Below, piece by piece: positions 21,484-23,111 of a stretch of DNA of 40,711 nt. Each line of letters starts with the position of its first letter. Within the stretch, counting starts at the first letter, position 1. Location of the stretch: positions 1 through 40,711 of the forward strand of contig DURM01000050.1 of NCBI GenBank assembly GCA_012837335.1, read 5' to 3'. Source of the DNA: Bacillota bacterium (GTDB lineage: Bacteria > Bacillota > Limnochordia > Darwinibacteriales > DTU012). The position numbers and the translations under genes were made by a program. Under the pieces are notes generated by a model that saw only the letters and a list, made by a program, of their open reading frames with translations, was not told where the DNA came from and did not search any database.

Positions 21484-22839
21484 TCATTCTGCTTCTGATT
21501 TAGATGTGGATTTTCCTTCCTGTTCTTTATCAGCAAGGTAGACAACAGCGGTCTCTAACCGGCGTTTTTTAATTTTGGTAACCTTAATACTCAATCCGTA
21601 TTCTTCAAGCTCCGGCGTGCTGCCGTCGCTCGGGATTGTGCCTAGCAGACCAAAGACAAAACCGCCAAAAGTATCATAATCGTCCTCAGGAAGTTCAACG
21701 CCGAGATGTTCTGCCACTTCATCCAGGGGCGCCGGACCACGGATCCGCCAAGTTTGGGAATCGATCCGCTCGATCAAAGGCGCCTCTCTGGGAATGGTGT
21801 CATCGTCTTCTAAGTCTCCAACCAGCTGTTCCAGCAGGTCGTTCATAGTAATGATTCCGCTCATGCCGCCGTAATCATCCAAAACAATAGCAAAATGGTT
21901 GCGGGATTTCTGCATATTGCGGAACAGCACATCCGCCCTCACTGATTCAGGAACAAAAAAGGGGGCGTGGACCGCTTTCTTCATGACATTTTCCCTGGAT
22001 CTATTTTTCAAGCGGAGATAATCTTTGGTTTTCAGAACTCCGATGATATGGTCGGGACTTTCTGAGCAGATGGGATATGCTGAATAGCGGCTCTGCAGGA
22101 TTGTCTGCTCCCACTGCTCATCGGTTTCATCGAGCCACAGCAGGGACACCTCAACGCGGTGAGTCATGATTTCCCCTGCAGATATATCATCAAACTCAAA
22201 AACATTTTTGATCATGCTTTCTTCCGATGGCAGGATTGTGCCCCTTGCCTTGGCTGCTTCCAGCATTAAGCGGATTTCTTCTTCAGTATTATCCGCCTGG
22301 GAAGCATGGGGATCAATGCCGAAGAGACTGAGAAGCCCATTGGTGGATACCGTAAACAGCCACACTACCGGGGTAAAAATGCGCGCAACAGTATAAATCA
22401 GTCCGGACATGGATAAAGCAATCTGTTCAGCCTTTTCCATGGCAATGCGCTTGGGAATCAGTTCTCCTAAAAGTACAGTAAAATAGGTTAAGAGCAGTGT
22501 AATAATGGTAACTGATAACAGGCTCACCAGAAAGCGGGGCGCGTTGATGCCGATGCTGACAAACCAGGCTGTCAGCCGACCAGAAAAGTTTTCGGTAGCA
22601 ACAGCTGAGCTGAGTAGATTGATTAACGTGATTCCCACTTGAATGGTGGCCAGAAAAATGGACGGCTGTTCGGTTAGTTTGGAAAGTCGCAGAGCCCGCT
22701 TATCTCCTTCGGCTTTAAGCTGGGCAAGTTTGTTGCTGTTCATTGTCAGCACTGCGATTTCAGCTCCAGCAAATACTGCGTTTAGCAAGATGAAAATGAA
22801 TTGAAGCAGAAATAACAAAAACAAAGGGCTTTCCGTCAA
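21484..22839 (-). CDS. CNNM/DUF21-CBS-CorC family divalent cation (Mg2+) transporter
   Basis: A 451-residue membrane protein often labelled hemolysin C-like. Residues 1-190 are the DUF21/CNNM membrane domain (AGAEIAVLTMNSNKL, ELIPKRIAMEKAEQIA). Residues about 205-335 are a CBS pair (IMTHRVEVSLLWLDE, VLDDYGGMSGIITMNDLLEQLVGD), and about 345-430 is the CorC/HlyC C-terminal domain. Relatives such as S. aureus MpfA and the CNNM family export Mg2+; others are linked to Co2+ tolerance. TTG 22839 is preceded by AGGAGG with an 8-base spacer. The gene has a 240-base leader with its own promoter, a small reading frame and a terminator, so its expression is probably attenuated by a signal, plausibly Mg2+. 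Confidence 0.92.
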   Translation of the reverse strand: MTESPLFLLFLLQFIFILLNAVFAGAEIAVLTMNSNKLAQLKAEGDKRALRLSKLTEQPSIFLATIQVGITLINLLSSAVATENFSGRLTAWFVSIGINAPRFLVSLLSVTIITLLLTYFTVLLGELIPKRIAMEKAEQIALSMSGLIYTVARIFTPVVWLFTVSTNGLLSLFGIDPHASQADNTEEEIRLMLEAAKARGTILPSEESMIKNVFEFDDISAGEIMTHRVEVSLLWLDETDEQWEQTILQSRYSAYPICSESPDHIIGVLKTKDYLRLKNRSRENVMKKAVHAPFFVPESVRADVLFRNMQKSRNHFAIVLDDYGGMSGIITMNDLLEQLVGDLEDDDTIPREAPLIERIDSQTWRIRGPAPLDEVAEHLGVELPEDDYDTFGGFVFGLLGTIPSDGSTPELEEYGLSIKVTKIKKRRLETAVVYLADKEQEGKSTSKSEAE

Positions 22840-22912
22840 AGCGATAACCTCCTGAAATCTGTTCGTTTTAGTTTAAGCAGTTCCAACACAAACATAACAG
22901 CAACCGAGATTA

Positions 22913-23056
22913 TCATAATAAAAAAACACATAACAACAAGGACAATGCATAATTGTCCCGCGTTATGTGTTTATAACTTTTATGTAAAAGCGTATAGATA
23001 CAGGAAAATCTGATCGTCCACCGATTCGGAGGCTCCGGATCATAATTTTCTCTCAT
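22913..23056 (-). CDS. Candidate leader peptide (47 codons) with acidic/proline run, MgtL-like
   Basis: The frame starts ATG 23056 and reads MRENYDPEPPNRWTIRFSC..., ending with TGA 22915-22913. The D-P-E-P-P codons are at 23041-23027. Enterobacterial MgtL peptides also open with alternating acidic residue and proline followed by an Arg/aromatic segment, and ribosomes destabilise on such nascent chains when Mg2+ is low. The frame contains the entire terminator hairpin (22972-22924) and stops just past its U-run, so a translating ribosome would melt it. The ribosome site is weak (GGTG eight bases upstream, or AAAGG at 15), and the start overlaps the stop of an upstream 5-codon frame (ATGA). Translation is unproven. 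Confidence 0.5.
   Translation of the reverse strand: MRENYDPEPPNRWTIRFSCIYTLLHKSYKHITRDNYALSLLLCVFLL
22921..22972 (-). terminator. Intrinsic terminator inside the CNNM/CorC leader
   Basis: Outer stem of 11 bp (AAACACATAAC with GTTATGTGTTT), an internal loop and an inner stem of 7 bp (GGACAAT with ATTGTCC). On the minus strand this is followed by a run of Ts. No minus-strand gene lies upstream for it to terminate, so it acts as an attenuator or ends a small RNA of about 155 bases. Confidence 0.85.
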
Positions 23057-23083
23057 AATAGGAGCACCATACCTTTCACCATA

Positions 23084-23111
23084 ATAATAGCATATTCTGG
23101 ATAAAAGTCAA
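23084..23111 (-). promoter_or_regulatory. Promoter of the CNNM/CorC leader
   Basis: On the minus strand, TTGACT (23111-23106), a 16-base spacer and TATTAT (23089-23084). This is a good sigma-A match, with the start predicted near 23078-23080. Confidence 0.7.

Follow-up and report, generated by a model that had tools for sequence, protein, structure and literature searches.

The window analysed here, a stretch of 40,711 nt from contig DURM01000050.1 of a Bacillota bacterium, raises the question of why a short reading frame with an acidic and proline-rich start runs across an intrinsic terminator ahead of a gene for a CNNM/CorC membrane protein. A preliminary description made from the sequence alone had proposed a Mg2+-sensing attenuator at this site. 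Reading the minus strand confirmed its near-consensus promoter, the 47-codon frame opening MRENYDPEPP, the terminator inside this frame and the CNNM/CorC gene (Table 1). We interpret the leader as a translation-controlled transcription attenuator in which a surviving ribosome would turn the CNNM gene on and early ribosome loss would turn it off, with Mg2+ as the signal, and assign this reading a probability of about two in three.

Table 1 Features of the leader locus, in positions of the window.
Feature	Position	Strand	Basis or remark
Promoter, sigma-70-type, TTGACT-16-TATTAT	23084..23111	-	near-consensus, 10/12 matches
-35 hexamer TTGACT; 16-nt spacer; -10 hexamer TATTAT	23111-23106; 23089-23084	-	
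Expected transcription start	~23077	-	
Leader-frame ribosome-binding stretch GAAAGG...GGTG, conserved	23065..23077	-	sequence
Leader frame, 47 codons + stop, ATG at 23056, translation MRENYDPEPPNRWTIRFSCIYTLLHKSYKHITRDNYALSLLLCVFLL	22913..23056	-	
Leader stop codon TGA	22915-22913	-	
Acidic/proline run ENYDPEPP, codons 3-10, proposed ribosome-destabilising sensor	23027..23050	-	Asp/Glu frequencies, pN/pS
Intrinsic terminator, hairpin + T-run, within leader frame	22920..22972	-	dG, covariation
Terminator T-run	22926-22920	-	
AGGAGG, ribosome-binding site of CNNM gene	22848..22853	-	sequence
CNNM/CorC (MpfA/CorB-type) membrane protein, 451 aa, TTG start, regulated gene	21484..22839	-	

The window protein carries the CNNM/CorC domain set, with matches to Pfam CNNM (DUF21; 5e-48), CorC_HlyC (2e-18) and CBS, of which a single repeat lies above the cut-off, and by its family it probably exports Mg2+. 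The divergent neighbour of the leader locus is a flagellin gene. The terminator hairpin has a dG of about -22 kcal/mol, and the fold energy of the leader RNA lies 4.2 sd below that of shuffles. The preliminary description had named an Rfam riboswitch as a competing explanation of the leader. This candidate, including the M-box, was rejected, as Rfam covariance models matched nowhere in the window and an Rfam search of the genome did not find the M-box (RF00380).

CNNM relatives were gathered within the class and the phylum and in a public set of species genomes, and their upstream regions were read, yielding 74 regions for comparison. An acidic-headed upstream frame precedes 43 of the 50 CNNM genes at ≥42% identity and 10 of the 12 at about 41% identity, and none of the three at 31-33%. 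Shuffled controls gave acidic frames in 5.7% at ≥42% identity and in about 6-14% over the identity groups. This control is independent of the choice of starts by eye; its count of 43 takes in the spurious L052 and leaves out the curated L042, whose frame is too long. By this measure, the recurrence of the layout ahead of CNNM genes is more than chance. Counting against the reading proposed here, some relatives lack a leader (L047, L048, L052, L056, L059, L062-L064 and L073).

The close relatives show the layout of the window (MTENYDSEPPNLW, MSDNPDPEPSARH, VDDNSDPEPSKW), among them Ruminiclostridium sufflavum (VSDSSDSDSEPPSPQ), Thermoclostridium caenicola (VEDSSVSDIEPPSRK) and Massiliimalia (VDAPSGPDAEPPNRR). 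Where the CNNM proteins are 42-62% identical, shorter leaders are kept (VDDSPFPEQ, MEDADPSGNRR, MDTSDSCPDPAR), and in the clades at ~41% identity the start is acidic with proline scarce or absent (MDDDLGDGDSNN, MDDDIGDEGSS, MEDSFGEEGSS, MEENAGDIRSS). The leader layout thus recurs before CNNM genes in dozens of genomes. It is not a one-off: judged by the counts in the two identity groups and in the paralogous family described below (43/50, 10/12, 7/9), it is common in Clostridia and relatives. In two MAGs labelled Candidatus Epulonipiscium (L030, L024), the leaders form a distinct sub-type, recognisable by an AVPPNE core.

The linkage to CNNM genes appears exclusive in the genomes and loci covered. 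A profile of the leader peptide matched exactly 10 of 73 class genomes, namely those owning this CNNM, and always ahead of it; elsewhere in the 73 genomes there was no clean site, just weak reverse-strand echoes of the palindromic stem. As these leaders were among the sequences used to build the profile, its informative part is the absence elsewhere. In place of a genome-wide control, we used the flanking genes and every terminator-like site in the loci that were retrieved. Of the 506 such sites, 50 are overlapped by an acid-headed frame that has a ribosome site; with four exceptions, these 50 are CNNM leaders. Under a loose criterion, 12 of 103 flanking genes also had an acidic frame, so that this criterion alone is unspecific and the weight lies on terminator overlap and homology. 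Near-consensus hexamer pairs lie 22-48 nt 5' of the leader start in 42 of 43 leaders (the exception, L026, was scored at 72 nt), and an AAAGG/GGTG-like stretch precedes most leader starts.

The frame is open from its start to the 5' arm of the terminator in 41 of 43 curated leaders, compared with 5 and 1 for the other two frames, in a test that can be flattered by the picking of starts by eye. Its middle is variable in sequence and length, and the frame itself is kept. Acidic residues are concentrated at codons 2-10 and rare beyond codon 13, with Asp/Glu at codons 2, 3, 6 and 8 in 56, 70, 65 and 81% of the 43 curated leaders; arginine and lysine come after the acidic/proline stretch. Aspartate and glutamate codons are freely swapped. 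The pN/pS ratio, taken from 16 close pairs that are not all independent, is 0.46 at codons 2-14 versus 0.78 mid-frame, and by this substitution pattern the acidic start is under purifying selection. A ribosome-destabilising start, as proposed in the preliminary description, is strongly supported by these comparisons. Early acidic codons, often acid-x-acid and with proline, in a short upstream frame are the hallmark of destabilisation leaders of the mgtL/mgtQ type and are present here, as is the linkage to a cation transporter gene, the ion specificity being that expected of its family.

Proline behaves differently. It occurs in 47, 44 and 37% of leaders at codons 7, 11 and 12, and the clades at ~41% identity have little or none of it, so that of the acidic/proline run first described the acid is conserved and the proline is not. 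Across the leaders compared, acid, not proline, is the constant feature. This bears on the idea of a classical attenuator responding to proline or aspartate, or of a sensor of charged tRNA-Pro like mgtP. The prolines common at the three codons just named would suit such a device. It is nevertheless very improbable, since clades without proline in the run are still acidic (L067, L071, L074), a stalled ribosome would find no antiterminator to favour, and the regulated gene is not an amino-acid gene.

The terminator hairpin covaries, with two-sided changes in 8 of 17 pairs; none of 500 shuffles scored as high, and slid controls were lower. The automatic hairpin search was wrong for L004 and L042; for these two and several others, the arms were placed manually. 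The consensus fold from an alignment of 25 leaders is the terminator only, with no conserved pause hairpin seen. Pairing of the leader with the 5' arm was at chance over the 43 leaders (mean z 0.09), compared with -4.8 for the terminator's own arms. A trp-type layout with an antiterminator was rejected on these two results. As no antiterminator was detected, the default outcome should be termination, and the visible way to stop it in these sequences is a ribosome on the 5' arm.

Relative to the start of the 5' arm, the stop codon lies between -7 and +126 nt in 43 of 43 curated leaders, usually 8-15 nt 3' of the stem. The preliminary description had the frame exactly covering the terminator, which is true for the window; in some relatives, the frame ends earlier, within the loop or the 5' arm or as much as 7 nt ahead of the hairpin. 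A leader frame that runs into or ends by an intrinsic terminator, as in pyrL-type attenuation, is thus found in 43/43. The features of mgtL proper, a Rho-dependent terminator and alternative folds, were not found: the terminator is intrinsic, and no alternative pairing of the 5' arm rises above chance. A terminator kept with a broken frame, which the preliminary description had considered damaging to its proposal, was seen in no relative. L047 and L048 have lost the leader frame together with the 5' arm of the terminator and retain the 3' arm and T-run, so they are not cases of a terminator standing without the frame.

Two further alternatives concern the end of the peptide. The small protein could itself be the product, a membrane microprotein with the C-terminus LSLLLCVFLL, and the terminator overlap incidental. 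The C-terminus is indeed hydrophobic and conserved, but its sequence is dictated by the terminator stem, and several relatives whose frame ends within or ahead of this stem lack the hydrophobic tail (L018, L023, L027, L029, L044, L053); together with purifying selection that is strongest at the acidic start, this leaves the microprotein with hardly any probability. Alternatively, the C-terminus could act as an arrest peptide that, on sensing a ligand, holds the ribosome on the terminator. The usual position of the stop shortly after the stem fits such a function, and Clostridia have known leaders of the arrest-peptide type (CliM, PMC13183943). The C-termini, however, vary in length and position as explained by the stem, and the conserved, selected part is the N-terminus; we regard arrest as highly doubtful.

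At the level of sequence, the frame, its acidic start, the hairpin, the stop position, the absence of an antiterminator and the exclusive CNNM linkage are established by these comparisons. From the open frame, the stop position, the covarying hairpin and the missing antiterminator it follows that translation should block termination. In the attenuator that we propose, the strong promoter would produce a short leader RNA that is terminated by default. A ribosome on this leader would first meet, within the first dozen codons, the acidic run (often Asp/Glu-x-Asp/Glu and often proline-containing), a context in which the nascent chain destabilises its ribosome. If it survives, it would reach or enter the hairpin and block its folding, and RNA polymerase would continue into the CNNM gene; if it is lost or lags, the hairpin would fold and transcription would end. 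This sign, in which a ribosome completing the frame turns the gene on, was already part of the first proposal of a translation-dependent attenuator and is strongly supported by the comparative data.

The individual steps have precedents. In E. coli, termination at an intrinsic terminator falls from about 90% to under 10% when a stop codon lies 5 bp ahead of it, an effect that depends on translation (PMC4824070), and in cells without EF-P the pyrL terminator works again if ribosomes stall at a polyproline stretch upstream of it (PMC5021804). At low Mg2+, ribosomes drop off at the EPDP of MgtL, and early DxE motifs are destabilising (PMC11282234). By analogy, ribosomes would drop off at the acidic run of the leaders studied here, increasingly so at low Mg2+; our search of the accessible literature found no demonstration of destabilisation by acidic starts in Clostridia. 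Because drop-off has been shown to rise under Mg2+ scarcity for mgtL in enterobacteria, we predict that plentiful Mg2+ keeps the exporter on and that a shortage turns it off. The model also presumes transcription-translation coupling in these organisms. RNA polymerase of B. subtilis reportedly outruns its ribosomes, a behaviour called runaway transcription (cited in PMC9226507), so that the model needs better coupling or polymerase pausing on the leader; otherwise the attenuator would be blunted.

Mg2+ as the signal is suggested by mgtL and by the transporter family. The same attenuator could instead sense general translation capacity, such as ribosome supply, EF-P or ABC-F factors, or drugs. 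Acidic/proline runs are relieved by EttA-type ABC-F proteins (PMC11282234) and by EF-P (PMC5021804), and all of the sequence evidence is equally compatible with this explanation. Against it, a signal related to cations is indicated by the exclusive linkage to CNNM genes, which holds for the two CNNM families of the class, and the precedents of mgtL and mgtQ apply the same chemistry to Mg2+ transporters. We consider a general-capacity sensor unlikely, though by no means negligible.

Among known leaders, pyrL of the E. coli pyrBI operon is similar in that its frame extends into an intrinsic terminator, where a ribosome moving along the frame keeps transcription from ending. Its signal is UTP-dependent polymerase pausing, not nascent-chain stability, it is without an acidic start, and the gene is unrelated. 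The mgtL leader of mgtA in Salmonella and E. coli shares the short frame starting with acidic residues and proline (motif EPDP), the Mg2+ transporter gene downstream and, as proposed for the window leader, a nascent chain that destabilises the ribosome at low Mg2+. It differs in its Rho-dependent terminator and alternative RNA folds, in place of which the window leader has an intrinsic terminator in the frame and no alternative fold, and in its sign: drop-off turns an importer on there and should turn an exporter off here. No sequence kinship between the two is claimed. In the mgtQ leader of Salmonella mgtB, the acidic start of a short upstream frame likewise controls a Mg2+ transporter via translation abortion (PMC8092293), but mgtQ has 8 codons, lies between two genes and acts on translation, and abortion turns the importer on. 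The CorC-domain proteins of Salmonella corC (ybeX) and mgpA (yoaE) are raised by high Mg2+, by a mechanism stated as unclear in a study that describes a destabilising sequence early in CorC, the leader peptide YoaL at mgpA and no intrinsic terminator within a leader frame (PMC12421838). The M-box riboswitch (RF00380) is also a Mg2+-responsive transcription attenuator in Bacillota; unlike the window leader, it is aptamer-based, has no leader peptide and controls importers.

Salmonella aside, our literature search, which covered few subscription journals, did not find a leader peptide ahead of CNNM genes described, and a term search of a study of B. subtilis MpfA under osmotic stress (PMC8844918) found nothing on mpfA regulation. 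The control of Mg2+ export is poorly understood, and these leaders offer a concrete, testable answer. If the proposal is true, the ribosome, itself a large Mg2+ store, would report Mg2+ excess; control by nascent-chain ribosome destabilisation would reach beyond enterobacteria, with the opposite sign; and coupling would persist on these leaders despite its presumed weakness in B. subtilis.

A second CNNM family, which includes the genome's own paralogue, has an acidic-headed upstream frame in 7 of 9 members. The leader frame of this paralogue (L078/L095) encodes VDDPVPRLCMHILFYARTLVNLSKERPIRLLC (L078:1301-1399; G000 contig C66), and its relatives (L096-L101) have acid/proline-headed leaders such as MDDSPLPPRM...RFLC and MDEPPARS...YQLC. 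These frames end 42-65 nt 5' of the CNNM gene, and no terminator was apparent in the leaders examined. The frame end can pair with the CNNM ribosome site at 6 of 7 loci (z -1.9 to -3.8); the seven loci are related, and the test is modest. The pattern suggests the same sensor with a translational output. With confidence a little above even, we extend the interpretation to a widespread class in Clostridia and the like, in which ribosome stability as a Mg2+ sensor would turn Mg2+ exporters on, having evolved independently of mgtL and with the opposite sign, through at least two outputs: a terminator inside the frame, and leader translation that frees the ribosome site in the paralogues. The source genome also has one MgtE importer, and an acidic leader of the CNNM kind was not found ahead of its gene.

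Some leader frames are longer than needed to cross the terminator. In L028 and L031 the frame extends ~50 nt beyond it toward the CNNM ribosome site, and in L041 and L054 it overruns the CNNM start; in these four cases, translational coupling may add to the control. The CNNM proteins themselves, in most loci including the window (22839-22820), often begin with TTG followed by an acidic/proline stretch (LDDNP, LTDDP, LSDSP), and their N-termini resemble the start of their own leaders. By analogy with CorC (PMC12421838), this acidic N-terminus might serve as a second checkpoint.
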